Below, piece after piece: positions 26,466 through 31,801 of a stretch of 64,000 bases of DNA; the first letter of the stretch is position 1; every line of letters begins with the position of its first letter. The stretch is from Chitinophaga sp. (GTDB lineage: Bacteria > Bacteroidota > Bacteroidia > Chitinophagales > Chitinophagaceae): positions 744,001 to 808,000 of the forward strand of contig NZ_JAFAIX010000013.1 of the NCBI RefSeq assembly GCF_019236475.1, in the 5' to 3' direction. The notes below the pieces were generated by a model. That model saw nothing but the letters and a program-made list of their open reading frames with translations, made no database searches and was not told the origin of the DNA. Both the position numbers and the translations under genes were made by a program.

Positions 26466-27230
26466 ATGGAACAATTTCTCACTGTTGAGTCCCTCATCAG
26501 TCTGCTCACGCTTATACTCATGGAAATCGTCCTGGGTATAGACAACGTCATCTTTGTATCTATTGTACTGAACCGATTGCCCGCTGACAAACGACCAGCG
26601 GCAAGGCGTATCTGGATGTTTGCAGGTATGGCAATACGCATTGTATTATTGCTTTGCATCGGCTTCATTGTTCGTGCTGTACATCCACTCTTCTCTATTG
26701 GCGATCACGGAATCAGTCTGCGTGATCTTATCATGCTCGGTGGTGGTTTATTCCTGTTGGTGAAAACCACATTGGAAATACACCATAAACTGGAAGGAGA
26801 GGAGGAAACAGCGGCTGCTGGTCCCAAAAAAGGTGGCGCATCCTTTGCCAATATTGTTGGCCAGATTATCCTGATCGACACTGTATTCTCATTCGACAGT
26901 ATCATTACTGCGGTGGGCTTGGCCCGTCAAATTCCAGTGATGATCATTGCGGTAGTTATCGCGATGATAGTCATGTTCTTTTTTGCACCACGCATCAGTG
27001 ACTTTATCCACAAACATCCAACGCTGAAAATGCTGGCTTTGTCCTTCCTGGTGATGGTAGGAGCTATCCTCATTGTAGAGGGCTGGAATGCAGAGCAGGC
27101 ACACGCTTTACACCTGAAGAACTATGTGTACTTCGCCATGGCTTTCTCTTTCGCGGTGGAACTGCTGAATATGCGTGTTCGTAAGAACGGTAAGCCCGTA
27201 GAATTAAAGGAACCGACTATCAAGGAATAG
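26466..27230 (+). CDS. TerC/YgjT-family integral membrane protein
   Basis: The 254-residue protein has about seven membrane helices. The conserved acidic motifs are MEIVLGIDNVIFVSI in helix 1 and IDTVFSFDSIITAVG in the middle, and the SFLVMVGAILIVEGW segment is also typical. TerC proteins are linked to tellurite resistance and more recently to metal (manganese) handling during secretion. It follows pyrD by 29 bases on the same strand and may be co-transcribed, ending at the hairpin at 27257. The substrate cannot be read from sequence. Confidence 0.93.
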   Translation: MEQFLTVESLISLLTLILMEIVLGIDNVIFVSIVLNRLPADKRPAARRIWMFAGMAIRIVLLLCIGFIVRAVHPLFSIGDHGISLRDLIMLGGGLFLLVKTTLEIHHKLEGEEETAAAGPKKGGASFANIVGQIILIDTVFSFDSIITAVGLARQIPVMIIAVVIAMIVMFFFAPRISDFIHKHPTLKMLALSFLVMVGAILIVEGWNAEQAHALHLKNYVYFAMAFSFAVELLNMRVRKNGKPVELKEPTIKE

Positions 27231-27256: not shown

Positions 27257-27286
27257 CGGCTGATTCCAAAAGGATCAGCCGTTTTT
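27257..27286 (+). terminator. Terminator after terC; first of a series of GGCTGACC-type hairpins
   Basis: CGGCTGATtCC pairs with GGATCAGCCG (one bulged T) and is followed by TTTTTAG. Flanking arms AATACTA and TAGTATT (27247-27296 region) are also complementary. The inner stem resembles the other hairpins found to 28869. Confidence 0.7.
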
Positions 27287-27289
27287 AGT

Positions 27290-27415
27290 TGGTAGTATTG
27301 TATACTGGAATAACTGGAATAACTGGCTTATGATATACTGGTATATCTAGCTTATTGCATACTGGCAGATGTTAGCTTATGCATACTAGCATATCTGGTT
27401 TCTGGCAACCTGGAA
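27290..27415. repeat. Degenerate ATACTGG/CTTATGCATACT repeats
   Basis: The block repeats variants of ATACTGG and of CTTATnnATACTgGnATATCTaG several times with irregular 10-35 base spacing. It lies between the terC terminator and the second hairpin. I see no coding potential. Confidence 0.5.
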
Positions 27416-27419
27416 TAAA

Positions 27420-27450
27420 AAGAGACTGACTTTTTTAAGGCCAGTCTCTT
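27420..27450 (-). terminator. Terminator-like hairpin with T-run on the minus strand
   Basis: AAGAGACTGAC pairs with GCCAGTCTCTT (one A-C position, a U-G pair on minus). Read on the minus strand it is followed by TTTTATTCC, so it can end transcription coming from the ART side. Confidence 0.6.
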
Positions 27451-27518
27451 AAAACAGAACAACAGTCGAGGAATCGTACCGTTTCATTAACCAAAACAAT
27501 TGTACTAACAAATTAACC

Positions 27519-27584
27519 ATGAAAAAAAGTTGGGTTAACAAACAAGGAAGGTTTACCAATACTGAGTTACCTCAATATGAGTAA
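27519..27584 (+). CDS. Possible 21-residue leader-like peptide (speculative)
   Basis: ATG 27519 follows an A-rich leader (AACAAATTAACC) and encodes MKKSWVNKQGRFTNTELPQYE. A similar very short frame starts at 28028. Both follow a CGAnnAATCG stem-loop by about 40-50 bases. Nothing else supports translation, and the pairing evidence in the region points to the other strand. Confidence 0.15.
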   Translation: MKKSWVNKQGRFTNTELPQYE

Positions 27585-27683
27585 TCTGACGAAAGCAGCA
27601 GCAGCATGCAGTGTTAAAAGTGCAGTAAAAAACATCACCACATGTGCTGCCTTTTTCGCCATCCTACGTTTTTTTCCAATCAT
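27567..27683 (-). CDS. Candidate 38-residue hydrophobic peptide (speculative)
   Basis: A minus-strand frame from ATG 27683 encodes a basic start (MIGKKRRMAKKAAH) followed by one hydrophobic stretch (VVMFFTALLTLHAAAAFVRLLIL). That is the layout of a small membrane peptide or type I toxin. It begins 20 bases after hairpin 27703-27737 in the reading direction. The longer 79-residue ORF runs through that hairpin and is less likely. An overlapping plus-strand frame (27577-27765) exists, so this is weak evidence. Confidence 0.2.
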   Translation of the reverse strand: MIGKKRRMAKKAAHVVMFFTALLTLHAAAAFVRLLILR

Positions 27684-28027
27684 AAAATCCTCAGTTATGG
27701 AAACAAGGGGCCGACTTAGGTTAGTCAGCCACCTTGTGCATACGAGGGTCACGAAATCTTCATGACACCTCTCCCTTTTGCCAGCTTCCTCATCCAGCGC
27801 AGGCATATAGTATCTCAGCGAAGAATCGTTCCGTCGCTAACACCTAATGCTCTTCAGAAACAGATATTCACTGCTCTCTCCATATGAGTTTAATCTTCTA
27901 ATCCTTTTGGGAACAAAGGGCCGACCATCCCCTATCAGATGGCCAGCCACTTTGAGTAATCGCAGTACACGAAAAATCGTATCCGCCTTCTCCTAACTTT
28001 TGGTATTTGTTTAACTCTAAAAAAACT

Positions 28028-28099
28028 ATGAAAAATAAAAATCGTCAAATAACATCCGCTGTGGATAACCTTAATTGGATAATCGATATGGATTATTGA
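28028..28099 (+). CDS. Possible 23-residue peptide (speculative)
   Basis: ATG 28028 after TCTAAAAAAACT encodes MKNKNRQITSAVDNLNWIIDMDY and runs into the GATATGGAT repeats. It shares the Lys-rich start and A-rich leader with the frame at 27519. There is no family match and coding is doubtful. Confidence 0.15.
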   Translation: MKNKNRQITSAVDNLNWIIDMDY

Positions 28100-28120
28100 T
28101 ATGGATAATCCGATATGGAT
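28060..28120. repeat. DnaA-box-like site followed by three GATATGGAT iterons
   Basis: TGTGGATAA (28060-28068) is the complement of the DnaA box TTATCCACA. GATATGGAT then occurs at 28085, 28098 and 28112, spaced 13-14 bases. The arrangement recalls iteron origins, but no replication protein gene is present. Confidence 0.4.
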
Positions 28121-28294
28121 TCCTCTTTGAATTCTCCATTAATAAATACTTTAGTAACACACAGCATACGAACGAATCGTATCTGCTACTCATTTTCTAA
28201 CTCGTTACCCCAAATAAAAAAAATTAACTAATGCTATAAGATATTTTAAGAATAGGCTACCAACAATGAATACATTATATGTATTCCTTTTCAA

Positions 28295-28490
28295 ACAGTG
28301 AATCCATTACAAAGCATTCTTTACAGCCCCTTTACAGACAGTGAATCCATTACAAAGCAATCCATTACAAACCAATTCTTTACAAATCCTTTACAGATAC
28401 CCCTCTCTCTACAGACAGTAAATTCATTATACACCACCTTTTACAGCCAATGAATCCAGCACCCTTTAATAAGTCTATACAGACCTATAG
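28295..28490. repeat. Degenerate tandem repeats of about 43 bases (CAGTGAATCCATTACAAAGCA)
   Basis: CAGTGAATCCATTACAAAGCA occurs exactly at 28296 and 28339 (43 bases apart). Weaker copies continue to about 28490, each ending in TTTACAG or TATACAG. No frame stays open through it. Confidence 0.7.
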
Positions 28491-28572
28491 GCAAACACCT
28501 CCCCTATTGGCTATCTTTAGCCAATCTCCATTTCTATCATATCGCTACCTATAGTTAAATGTGTTTATTTTT

Positions 28573-28610
28573 CAATAGTGGGCTGGCCAGGAAATGGCCA
28601 GCCGTTATTG
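28573..28610. repeat. GGCTGGCC hairpin with outer CAATA/TATTG arms
   Basis: GGCTGGCCA (28581-28589) pairs perfectly with TGGCCAGCC (28595-28603), loop GGAAA. Outside it CAATA (28573) pairs with TATTG (28606). Confidence 0.6.
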
Positions 28611-28832
28611 GTTACACTAACGGGATGCCTATAGCTGCATCCCTCACTACCTGGAAAACGCAAGGGTTAGTATGCGATGAATCACTACAGGCATATGATA
28701 CCGGGATTTGGGCCGGCTGGAATAAAGCCGGCCCGTCCGGCGGTGAGGCAGATTACCGATGAACCTCCCCTTTCTCTGCCCCACACTTGAAGCTATCCCT
28801 GCAATGGTCCTTCATCAAAAAATTTTCTCGAA

Positions 28833-28869
28833 ACAAGGGGCTGACCAGGAAATGGTCAGCCGTTCTTGT
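28833..28869. repeat. GGCTGACC hairpin with outer ACAAG/CTTGT arms
   Basis: GGCTGACCA (28839-28847) pairs perfectly with TGGTCAGCC (28853-28861), loop GGAAA as in the 28573 copy. ACAAG (28833) pairs with CTTGT (28865). It is the copy nearest the 3' end of the ART-like gene. Confidence 0.6.
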
Positions 28870-29266
28870 AGGTCATCGTCATTGTGAATTAAATGGGTTG
28901 GTTTTTGACTCATGACAGAAAAATTGGGTTAACAAACATTGGGTTAACAAACGATGATCTGTTGAAATCCTAGTGATGCTGTTACTTTTATAGTAGGTGT
29001 ATTTAATTGTGCTGCTCATTTTGATAACGTCGTTTTTAATTGATAGCTCAAAACTATTCAAAAGCGAAAAGCCAAAACCGCGTTTTTCAACTTTCAAATC
29101 CCCGAATGAGAATGAACAGGATCATGATAAATTGAACAAAATGAACAGAACGGGAGAAAAAGAGGGGCATTGGCTGCAAACCAGCCATGGGAGAAGATTT
29201 AGGGCGGTACAATTGAATGGAACGATTCTTCAGCTTACAAAGGGAAGGAACATAGCTACAGGAGGA

Positions 29267-29932
29267 TTAACTCAAAATACTTGGCATTTCTTCGGAATGC
29301 GCCTTGTTGGCAACCGGCCATTCCATCTCTTCTCTAGGATTAAAGAAGCCCTTTATACAGTTAGGATTACGTATACATATTTGAATATGACTTTTCTCGT
29401 AAAACCCTGCACCAGGGTAGATGGGAGCACCTTCTATGAATGCACAGCGGACGGTATCGAAGGGTGGTTTTCTTTTCATCTCCCTTTCATCATGTAATGA
29501 TTCAATGTAATAATTATCCAAAACCCGCAAAAGTGTATTGTTTTTTCCTGTCTCTGGAATGGGATGCTGCTTTTTTAATACAAAATCAAAAATTGTTTTC
29601 ACTTCATAGATCGAGTTCAAAGCAAAATCTTTTAACACATCGATGCATTGTTTATCTAGTAAGTCCAAACAATTATCTAAACTTATAACAGCTCCTATAA
29701 CCGCTGGTTCAGATACCTTACCTCGCCTTGCTTGTTCCCAGGCAAATTCCATTGCCCGTTCATAATTATTCTGCCAAAAATAAATACCTGGGCCCAGCCA
29801 GTCATATTTATTTACACTCGGGTGAAGCATTATCCTTCCCGCTATTACACCTTCTGCAACTGATTTATCACAACCATGGAAGCCCAATAGTAAACCAGGG
29901 TCAGATCCATATAAAAGTGGTATTTTCTTCAT
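29267..29932 (-). CDS. Putative ADP-ribosyltransferase-like protein (toxin candidate)
   Basis: The 221-residue soluble protein contains LLLGFHGCDKSVAEGVIAG, YDWLGPGIYFWQNNYERAMEFAWEQA, IGAVISLDNCLDLLD, VRCAFIEGAPIYPGAGFYEKSHIQICIRNPNCIKGFFNPREE. The FHG, GIYFW and final strand SHIQICIRN fit the H-Y-x order of PARP/DarT/DUF3990-type ADP-ribosyltransferase folds, with Gln at the usual Glu position. I recall this as a widespread bacterial family without an established name. Three tandem paralogous small genes precede it on the same strand, the nearest 36 bases away, as expected for a toxin with small partner proteins. Activity and target are inference. Confidence 0.75.
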   Translation of the reverse strand: MKKIPLLYGSDPGLLLGFHGCDKSVAEGVIAGRIMLHPSVNKYDWLGPGIYFWQNNYERAMEFAWEQARRGKVSEPAVIGAVISLDNCLDLLDKQCIDVLKDFALNSIYEVKTIFDFVLKKQHPIPETGKNNTLLRVLDNYYIESLHDEREMKRKPPFDTVRCAFIEGAPIYPGAGFYEKSHIQICIRNPNCIKGFFNPREEMEWPVANKAHSEEMPSILS

Positions 29933-29968: not shown

Positions 29969-30181
29969 TTAATCATTATCAATCATTGCTTGTATAAATT
30001 CAGGACTCGGTTCCTGTTTAAGATAAGCAACCTTATAAAACTCCAACAACCAGACTGTATTCTCCTTTGGAAGATTTAATTTTAAAACAGAGCGTTCCCA
30101 ATTTTCATAAGAGGAGATGTTATGAGCCATCCTTATTTTCATACTTTCTCCTAATTCTTTAAGTTCTCTTGATGTAATCAT
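29969..30181 (-). CDS. Small conserved protein, copy 1 of a tandem triplicate (candidate antitoxin)
   Basis: The 70-residue protein from ATG 30181 (MITSRELKELGESMKIRMAHNISSYENWERSVLKLNLPKENTVWLLEFYKVAYLKQEPSPEFIQAMIDND). The longer 91-residue ORF adds sequence absent from its two paralogs, so the internal ATG is preferred. It is helical and has an acidic end. The core AHNISSYENWERSVLxLNLPKxNTVWLLEFYxVAxL is shared by all three copies. It lies 36 bases before the ART-like gene. I know no named family; a partner or antitoxin role is inferred from position. Confidence 0.75.
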   Translation of the reverse strand: MITSRELKELGESMKIRMAHNISSYENWERSVLKLNLPKENTVWLLEFYKVAYLKQEPSPEFIQAMIDND

Positions 30182-30273
30182 TTTCATATCAATTTTATGC
30201 GTTATAAAATGGTCTGTAAGTAAGTTTCTTATTAATAACATCACTTAGAAGTCTTCTGTGGCCCTTTCTCTAA

Positions 30274-30486
30274 TCAATCATCATCGTCCATTATCTCAAA
30301 AAATTCCGGACTTGGTTCCTCATTTAAGAAAGCAACTCTGTAAAACTCCAGCAACCATATTGTATTTACTTTCGGAAGATTTAATTCCAATACAGAATGC
30401 TCCCAATTTTCATAGGAGGAAATGTTATGCTCAATTCTTTTTTCAAGCCTTTCTCCTAAGTCAATAAGTTCTCTTGATGTAATCAT
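30274..30486 (-). CDS. Small conserved protein, copy 2 of the tandem triplicate
   Basis: The 70-residue paralog reads MITSRELIDLGERLEKRIEHNISSYENWEHSVLELNLPKVNTIWLLEFYRVAFLNEEPSPEFFEIMDDDD. It keeps the SSYENWE and NTIWLLEFYRVAFL core and an acidic tail. It is separated by about 92 bases from copy 1. Parts of the intergenic sequence (AATCATTTTNAAATCAATTTT) are also shared, so the duplicated unit is about 305 bases and includes the leader. Each copy can therefore have its own translation signals. Confidence 0.75.
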   Translation of the reverse strand: MITSRELIDLGERLEKRIEHNISSYENWEHSVLELNLPKVNTIWLLEFYRVAFLNEEPSPEFFEIMDDDD

Positions 30487-30572
30487 TTTGAAATCAATTT
30501 TTGGGTTATAAATTAGTTTCGTCAGTTGCTTATTTGAAGAATCACCAAAATACTTATGTATAATATCCTCCT

Positions 30573-30788
30573 CTAATCATTATCATCAAGCGGTGCTGCG
30601 AAGAAACCAAGACTCGGATCCTCCTTTAAGAAAACGACTCTATAATACTCTAGCAGCCATACTGTATTTATCCTCGGAAGATTTAATTCCAATACAGATC
30701 GCTCCCAATTTTCGTAAGAGGAGATGTTATGAGCCATCCTTCGTTTCATCCTTTCTCCTAATTCTTCAAACTGTTTTGATGTCATCAT
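30573..30788 (-). CDS. Small conserved protein, copy 3 of the tandem triplicate (promoter-proximal)
   Basis: The 71-residue paralog reads MMTSKQFEELGERMKRRMAHNISSYENWERSVLELNLPRINTVWLLEYYRVVFLKEDPSLGFFAAPLDDND. The core is conserved while the C-terminal dozen residues differ from copies 1 and 2 (SLGFFAAPLDDND against SPEFxxxMxDxD). It is the first gene of the putative four-gene transcript. The upstream region is AT-rich (TTTTTAAACCTTTAAATATTTT on the minus strand), which may hold the promoter. Confidence 0.72.
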   Translation of the reverse strand: MMTSKQFEELGERMKRRMAHNISSYENWERSVLELNLPRINTVWLLEYYRVVFLKEDPSLGFFAAPLDDND

Positions 30789-31093
30789 TCTTAAAATATT
30801 TAAAGGTTTAAAAATCCATTACCAGGCCAGGAGAGAGAGTATACGCCCGTAGTGTAACCACGCTAATGATAGCGTAAAATCAGGTCAACCAACAAAAGGT
30901 CCAAACAATAAAAATATAGGCGTGAACTTCCGATGGTTATCATTTTTGATCTCGTTTTGAAGTTGGAAACAAACATTCACCACCCAAAACTAGATCAAAA
31001 AAACATCGAAAACCCACGCCTAGCAAGAATCTTTTCCGCGAATGGAATGAACAGATCTAAATGATAATGAACAGATCTGTATGAGAAAAGTAG
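30789..31093. other. 305-base spacer upstream of the triplicate, with a 20-base tandem repeat
   Basis: No gene is seen. AATGAACAGATCT occurs twice (31046 and 31066), 20 bases apart, next to the rsmE stop. A related sequence, AATGAACAGgATCatgATAAattGAACA, lies on the far side of the module at 29111. The rest is AT-rich without clear structure. Confidence 0.5.
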
Positions 31094-31801
31094 TTAAGAT
31101 TTGATATTCATAATTACAGCAGCTACCATACCTGCAGTTTCTGTACGAAGCCGTGTACCCCCCAATGATACCGGCTGAAAACCTGCCGCCAGCGCAGCAT
31201 TCACCTCTTCAGGCGTAAAATCGCCCTCAGGGCCAATTAATATAATCGTATCCTTACCCGCTTGCATCACATCTTCCAAAGCTGTTTTCTGGTCCGGTAA
31301 ACAATGTGCTATAAACCGCTGCGCATCTTTATTTGAGGCCACCAATTTGTCAAAAGCCTGCGGGTCTTCCAATACCGGCAGATAAAACTGCTTCGACTGC
31401 AACATCGCTGATACCAGGATATTCTGCAATCGCTCTGCTTTTATTTTTTCTTTCTCTGTACGAGCACTCACCAGTGGAATAATCGTCTGTATACCAATCT
31501 CGGTGGCCTTCTCTAAAAACCACTCTATCCTAGACGCATTCTTGGTGAAAGCAATGGCTATACGCAGTGCAGGCGATGGCGCTGGCAATTGCTCCCGCCC
31601 ACTCACCTGCACTACACACTTCTTCCTGTTGTCGTCCGTAATTACTGTGGTATACTTATTCCCCCGACCATCGGCCAACAATACCGTATCCCCCTTTTCA
31701 TGCCGTAATACCTGGATACAATACTTCGAAGTATCCTCATTCATCGTGTAGGAAACAGCATCCTCCCGGATTTCCGGTGCATAAAATACAGGTAATTCCA
31801 T
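31094..31801 (-). CDS. rsmE: 16S rRNA m3U1498 methyltransferase
   Basis: The 235-residue SPOUT-class methyltransferase has an N-terminal PUA-like part (HVLRHEKGDTVLLADGRGNKYT). The C-terminal knot motifs are IGIQTIIPLVSARTE, IILIGPEGDFTPEEVNAAL and VSLGGTRLRTETAGMVA. It methylates U1498 of 16S rRNA with S-adenosylmethionine. Length is normal for RsmE. It is followed by the MATE gene region on the same strand (30-base gap) and borders the accessory island. Confidence 0.96.
   Translation of the reverse strand: MELPVFYAPEIREDAVSYTMNEDTSKYCIQVLRHEKGDTVLLADGRGNKYTTVITDDNRKKCVVQVSGREQLPAPSPALRIAIAFTKNASRIEWFLEKATEIGIQTIIPLVSARTEKEKIKAERLQNILVSAMLQSKQFYLPVLEDPQAFDKLVASNKDAQRFIAHCLPDQKTALEDVMQAGKDTIILIGPEGDFTPEEVNAALAAGFQPVSLGGTRLRTETAGMVAAVIMNIKS

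Follow-up and report, generated by a model that had tools for sequence, protein, structure and literature searches.

Between terC and rsmE, the window (the whole 64-kb stretch of DNA that was analysed) carries a row of hairpins, which raises the question of whether these are terminators, DNA elements or parts of an RNA. On balance, the description that we think fits the array best is that of a regulated hairpin-array RNA read from the minus strand and belonging to a Chitinophaga regulon. The source genome (G000) is close to C. dinghuensis (G016), the TerC proteins being 95% identical. The terC-rsmE interval is a lineage-specific insert that consists of ~1.8 kb without a conserved ORF followed by a minus-strand operon of small ORFs and orf221 (Table 1). 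The corresponding gap is short in most other Chitinophaga; a few carry other inserts, which are coding in the cases read. Small proteins encoded within the array were rejected because none of its ORFs of 30-79 aa is kept in C. dinghuensis. A replication origin, considered for a change in skew and one TGTGGATAA site at 28060, was ruled out since most Chitinophaga lack the region at this locus and the skew has no clean switch.

Table 1. Features of the terC-rsmE region of the window, and loci of the genus-wide array RNA (dG in kcal/mol).
Feature	Position or locus	Strand	Remarks
terC	26466-27230	+	
Hairpin 1	27257-27286	+	GGCTGATTCC/GGATCAGCC then TTTTT; kept in C. dinghuensis; more stable on plus strand; terC terminator
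Hairpin 2 (27420)	27412-27450	-	Minus strand AAGAGACTGGCC..GTCAGTCTCTTTTTATT; terminator of predicted leftward RNA
Predicted ~1.6-kb non-coding RNA	27412-29041	-	TSS ~29041, end ~27412; both predicted from sequence
Long conserved hairpin	27591-27656	-	dG -24.7 (G000), -33.7 (G016); two double changes
Hairpin 3	27703-27738	-	C.A mismatch on plus is U.G on minus; dG -22.2 (-) vs -19.1 (+)
Small conserved hairpin	27745-27775	-	GGTGTCATGAA/TTCGTGACCC; in both species
Hairpin 4	27914-27955	-	dG -27.1 (-) vs -16.7 (+); G016 -27.8 vs -18.0
Hairpin 5	28573-28611	-	Loop UUUCC; stem and loop identical in G016
Conserved hairpin	28621-28643	-	GGGATGC/GCATCCC; identical in G016
Hairpin 6 (28710)	28703-28742	-	Loop UUAUUCC; kept in G016; weak R1 match (15.2 bits, E 0.2)
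Hairpin 7	28833-28872	-	Loop UUUCC
Two GUUUGUUAACCC repeats	28926-28952	-	Near 5' end of predicted RNA; third copy 27532-27543
Promoter P2 (predicted)	29049-29146	-	GTTCATT at 29146 and 29117; -7 box TAGTTTTG at 29056-29049
orf221, ADP-ribosyltransferase-like	29267-29932	-	PADLOC and Foldseek; probably co-regulated (tentative)
Three paralogous small ORFs (91, 70, 71 aa)	29969-30788	-	Upstream of orf221, same direction
Promoter P1 (predicted), small-ORF/orf221 operon	30985-31052	-	GTTCATT at 31052, TAGTTTTG at 30992-30985; 60 nt
rsmE	31094-31801	-	
Genus-wide array RNA loci	L202, L204, L206, L208, L241, L253, L256, L269-L289		~1.1-1.4 kb

A sequence-only reading had described seven stem-loops here (at 27257, 27420, 27703, 27914, 28573, 28710 and 28833), joined by a common GGCYGRCC/GGYCRGCC inner stem. 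All seven are present and fold better than shuffled sequences, with z <= -3.9 for six of them and z -1.85 for 27914 on the plus strand. The five outer arms (AATACTA/TAGTATT, ACAAGG/CCTTGT, CAAAG/CTTTG, CAATA/TATTG and ACAAG/CTTGT) are also there as written; in C. dinghuensis, hairpin 27257 does not retain its AATACTA/TAGTATT arm. The inner stem is exact at 27914, 28573 and 28833 and takes looser versions at the other four hairpins, 27257 (GGCTGATT), 27420 (GACTGACT), 27703 (GGCCGACT) and 28710 (GGCCGGCT). The GGCYGRCC hairpin occurs in 77 of the 79 Chitinophaga genomes, usually as several to dozens of scattered copies, compared with ~1 in the reversed control; it is therefore not diagnostic, and we discarded it as a family signature. 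The seven hairpins do not form one uniform family; two of them, 27257 and 27420, are terminators.

All seven hairpins recur in the same order in C. dinghuensis (L020 2736, 2787, 3486, 3690, 4217, 4355 and 4478), so that the matches in related genomes whose absence had been named beforehand as grounds for giving up the idea were found when searched for. The array was found in two of 79 Chitinophaga genomes, the window genome and C. dinghuensis, and not across Bacteroidota. Conserved hairpins are also present beyond the seven, a longer one at 27591 and others at ~27745 and 28621. We compared base pairing between the two species in eight minus-strand hairpins, namely six of the original seven (27257 was left out) together with 27591 and 28621. 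All 102 base pairs are kept despite 23 changed sides, including five double changes, in agreement with the earlier view that structure is kept rather than sequence. Random placement of the substitutions broke 9.4 pairs and gave 0.57 double changes on average, never broke fewer than three, and was as good as the observed outcome in 0 of 5000 trials; the pairs come from a two-sequence consensus fold, which leans towards kept pairs, and the figure is thus supportive rather than exact.

The DNA itself is conserved as well. The right half of the array is 80-82% identical between the two species and the promoter element P2 is 95.9% identical over 145 nt, while the 4-fold sites of four flanking genes (pyrD, terC, rsmE and MATE) are 52-67% identical. 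By this measure, the non-coding sequence is under purifying selection. The stretches between hairpins at ~28000-28500 and ~27280-27400 are repetitive and of low conservation. Degenerate short direct repeats (TTTACAGACAGTGAATCCATTACAAAGCA; TACTGGCATATCTAGCTTATG) lie between hairpins at 28286-28439 and 27300-27420, and the corresponding place in C. dinghuensis holds a different repeat (ATTTGTATTCAC).

Folding on both strands upheld the structure and pointed to a strand that the sequence-only reading, made on the plus strand, had overlooked. Several stems have A.C mismatches on the plus strand that become G.U pairs on the minus strand, which identifies the minus strand, on the evidence of pairing, as the functional strand of the array. 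Free energy clearly favours the minus strand at 27420, 27591, 27703, 27914 and, in C. dinghuensis, 28833, with a gap of up to 10 kcal/mol; in C. dinghuensis, dG is -18.8 on the minus and -8.4 on the plus strand for 27420, and -14.5 and -8.0, respectively, for 28833. The plus strand is favoured at 27257, the terC terminator, and slightly at 28573, 28710 and 28833 in the window genome. The predicted 1,640-nt minus transcript contains 11 stems of at least 6 bp compared with 3.7 +- 2.2 in dinucleotide shuffles, and sliding-window folding reaches z scores down to -4.9 on the minus strand, with flanking coding windows near 0. Given the minus-strand energies and the terminator on that strand at 27420, the array looks like a single leftward transcript converging on terC.

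A promoter-like element, P2, lies upstream of the array. It has two GTTCATT copies 29 nt apart, and TAGTTTTG follows 61 nt after the second, proximal copy. TAGTTTTG matches TAnnTTTG, the Bacteroidota -7 consensus. The 61-nt distance from GTTCATT to TAnnTTTG is the same in C. dinghuensis. The strict geometry pattern matches twice in the window, at P1 and P2, versus once in 2.37 Mb of control loci (both strands). Together, the promoter-like element, the terminator at 27412-27450, the minus-strand folding and the lack of a conserved ORF make the prediction that the array specifies a leftward non-coding RNA well supported; its transcription and its ends we infer from sequence.

The alternative with the best claim, which we nevertheless consider unlikely, is that bidirectional terminators, or else insulators, form the array, with duplicated genus-common terminator stems blocking read-through between convergent operons. 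The frequency of GGCYGRCC hairpins in the genus is in keeping with this, as are the A-rich and T-rich outer arms, which look like terminator flanks, and the counterpart region in G017 and G022, where the one hairpin present is the pyrD terminator and has a T-tail. Moreover, a U-run directly after the GC stem is found at 27257 on the plus strand and at 27420 on the minus strand (T5 here, T8 in C. dinghuensis), so that the earlier assertion that these are not ordinary terminators applies to the array as a whole and fails for these two hairpins. However, no proper U-run was seen on either strand at 27703, 27914, 28573, 28710 or 28833, whose tails are CCTTGTTT, CTTTGTTC, GTTATTGG, CGTCCGG and GTTCTTGT, respectively. 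A terminator row also leaves the conserved promoter P2 without another product and does not account for the conservation of non-hairpin DNA or the long hairpin at 27591, and there is no need for seven terminators.

A rather smaller chance attaches to several short RNAs in place of one long RNA, with processing or termination of each at a hairpin. Neighbouring hairpins are 130-650 nt apart and the sequence between them is weakly conserved, and in G017 and G022 the same promoter would give an RNA of ~150-190 nt; against this, the region has one P2-type promoter only and its internal U-runs are poor. It is very unlikely that the hairpins are mobile or recombination elements (REP/RAYT, MITE or integron attC-like folded sites) working as DNA. 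The multiple palindromes, the lineage-specific terC-rsmE insert and the dispersal of the GTTCATT element would fit such elements, but hairpin copies of this kind occur in the genome at this locus only, near-matches elsewhere being as frequent as in the reversed control; the strand bias to G.U pairs points to RNA, the insert has no transposase or integrase, and the stems, at 23-45 nt, come without cassette ORFs. Least probable of all is decaying, functionless intergenic DNA with local duplications, for which the simple repeats at 28286-28439 and 27300-27420 and the presence in two species only might speak, and with which the retention of every pair and the conservation of non-coding blocks above that of 4-fold sites are at odds.

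Members of the regulon were traced with pattern searches alone, and in these, six of 79 Chitinophaga genomes contained the core of the promoter element, TGTTCATTNTCATTCGGGGAT, one of them weakly. The core marks clusters of small ORFs that precede a HupE/UreJ-family gene, as well as a further non-coding locus. Clusters of this kind were seen at G000:C5:140004-141444 (L203), L207, L230 and L235, and some carry a GTTCATT promoter element of their own. At L231 and L232 (G097), copies of TGTTCATTTTCATTCAGGGAT lack the usual -7 box at the fixed distance, and one lies inside a palindrome. In G017 and G022, repeats similar to GUUUGUUAACCC precede the one hairpin that corresponds to the array. The GTTAACAAAC repeats were set aside as a diagnostic feature, since they also occur at scattered unrelated sites and in a palindrome array in G060. 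The latter (L042 1041-1911, ~430 kb on G060:C17) consists of ~6 units of 154 bp in tandem, in each of which GTTTGTTAACCCAACGATGA precedes a long imperfect palindrome, and is unrelated to the window array except for the GTTTGTTAACCC motif.

The further non-coding locus marked by the core lies at ~301 kb on G000:C11 (L202) and holds the most conserved member of this regulon, a ~1.1-kb non-coding stretch between a divergent ADP-ribosylglycohydrolase gene (PF03747) and an aldo/keto reductase gene (PF00248). The stretch can be aligned over four species, and a fifth has it (L241). It holds many hairpins with a KUCY tetraloop (U[KUCY]A), a loop found in five of 200 tetraloop hairpins in control loci. 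We built a covariance model, R1, from 17 L202-type hairpins chosen partly for their loop. At least 27 of 79 Chitinophaga genomes, among them species outside the model set, gave R1 matches in clusters of 3-10 hairpins; in 149 other genomes of the order, the model gave isolated matches and no clusters. The aldo/keto reductase gene is beside the array in 27 of 31 examined loci, 21 of which have the glycohydrolase too. Among 115 distinct genus-wide hairpins, 94.6% of pair cells are standard and double-change cells number 114, compared with 31 in shuffles; as R1 picked this alignment, which leans towards structure, these counts are supportive and not independent. None of the 115 departs from the U-A closing pair or from U as the second loop base, which suggests a specific RNA-binding partner. 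Both promoter elements were found in 22 of 26 loci, with GTTCATT 51, 52 or 61 nt from TAnnTTTG. Nine loci (L253, L256, L274, L275, L277-L280 and L282) contain, within the RNA, a conserved 29-aa ORF, MQSFLFNR(H/K)FQTCT(F/Y)LGHYH(H/Y)QLFLFVLN, hinting at a dual-function RNA. Rfam 15 covariance models gave no credible match in the window region or at L020, L022, L202, L206, L253, L256, L269 and L280, and a literature search found no paper on such RNAs in Chitinophaga. The main predicted RNA of the regulon is a new genus-wide family, absent from Rfam.

The window array shares the promoter layout of the genus-wide RNA (GTTCATT - 51/61 nt - TAnnTTTG), with a distance of 61 nt. Three of its loops hold UUCC on the transcribed strand, UUUCC at 28573 and 28833 and UUAUUCC at 28710, and the loops of the hairpin 7 counterparts in G017 and G022, U[UUCU]A and U[GUCU]A, are of the kind seen in the genus-wide RNA. 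R1 found no significant match in the window array (best 28709-28735, E 0.2), and we therefore treat the array as a further RNA of that regulon with a similar design, and not as a proven member of the family. What speaks for kinship between the two is the promoter, the design and a similar loop.

The operon downstream of the predicted promoter P1 includes orf221, a putative ADP-ribosyltransferase. Weak PADLOC matches to PD-T4-9_A were obtained for orf221 and 19 of its 23 homologues (20/24), the best at 5e-7; Pfam gave no match to orf221. The AlphaFold model of orf221 has a mean pLDDT of 79.6, and its top Foldseek matches are nearly all ADP-ribosyltransferase (ART) folds, with PARP1 and Tpt1 on top and RhsP2 and ParT lower, none of them significant (best E 0.058, TM ~0.35). 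The family has conserved FHGCD and WLGxGxYFW motifs and is widespread in Chitinophaga at other loci. The three small ORFs belong to no Pfam, NCBIfam or PADLOC family. PD-T4-9 has been renamed CmdTAC (PMC9519451), and its CmdT ADP-ribosylates GA dinucleotides in single-stranded RNA (PMC11618068); RNA ADP-ribosylation is, in some cases, reversible by ARH-type hydrolases (PMC11833690). As the genus-wide RNA has an ADP-ribosylglycohydrolase gene for a neighbour, the hairpin-array RNAs may be tied to RNA ADP-ribosylation, though this is unproven. In a fuller version of the idea, which we consider improbable, the arrays would serve in a stress or phage-defence circuit based on RNA ADP-ribosylation, as decoy substrates, as regulators or as modified carriers, and would work there with an RNA-directed ADP-ribosyltransferase (orf221, weakly CmdT-like) and the ADP-ribosylglycohydrolase.

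We lean towards a model in which the hairpins are domains of the ~1.6-kb minus-strand RNA, which probably serves an RNA-binding factor as scaffold or sponge. The RNA would run leftward from the regulated promoter P2 to the terminator at 27420. P2 would make it part of a small regulon marked by GTTCATT and, at a fixed helical spacing, a TAnnTTTG box. Also in this regulon would be the operon with the ADP-ribosyltransferase-like gene, clusters of small ORFs and the genus-wide multi-hairpin RNA, the most conserved member of all. Upon induction, the RNA would offer many pyrimidine-loop hairpins (UUUCC here, U[KUCY]A genus-wide), and these loops may bind an RNA-binding protein or complementary RNAs, leading to titration or scaffolding. 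We infer this function, with its multi-site binding, titration and partner; the recurrence of invariant-loop hairpins in one regulated RNA makes protein-titrating sponges the closest likeness. By analogy only, RbpB (PMC11697453) and other RNA-binding proteins of Bacteroidota are candidates for the partner. Strings of near-identical pyrimidine-loop hairpins behind a sharply defined promoter, genus-wide in common soil Bacteroidota and absent from Rfam, bear on post-transcriptional regulation, which is poorly understood in this phylum. The prediction of expression is precise as to start, end and strand, and the repeated placement beside ADP-ribosylation enzymes is a testable link.

REP elements with a RAYT transposase do not fit because there are no dispersed copies, near-matches outside the locus being at reversed-control level. 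A type III toxin-antitoxin (ToxIN-like) repeat RNA needs identical tandem repeats upstream of the toxin in the same operon, whereas the hairpins here differ in sequence, lie downstream of orf221 and have their own promoter. CmdTAC, the mRNA ADP-ribosyltransferase defence system (PMC11618068), resembles the orf221 family in its weak PD-T4-9_A similarity and ART-like predicted fold, but no antitoxin/SecB-like chaperone pair was recognised, and orf221 instead has three small ORFs and the hairpin RNA nearby. OLE, ROOL and GOLLD (PMC12286853) are likewise long, structured, intergenic and without an ORF, yet in local folding the Chitinophaga arrays are a string of simple hairpins rather than an ornate multibranch fold, and have no Rfam match. 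The FopS family of paralogous sRNAs in Bacteroides, associated with the RNA-binding protein RbpB (PMC11697453), also presents repeated RNA units in Bacteroidota; compared by description, these are separate sRNA genes, whereas here the hairpins are strung in one predicted transcript. CsrB, CsrC and RsmZ sponge RNAs share the plan of one RNA with a regulated promoter and many small hairpins whose loop is the conserved part. The Chitinophaga arrays differ in size (1-1.6 kb), in the absence of an Rfam match and in their loops: GGA motifs were not found in the hairpin loops of the minus RNA, the loops being pyrimidine (UUUCC in the window, U[KUCY]A genus-wide), and the array RNA is therefore not a CsrB. 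Finally, Chitinophaga rho-independent terminators have the same GGCYGRCC stems, and 27257 and 27420 are such terminators, but the five array hairpins without U-runs are conserved within a predicted non-coding transcript.
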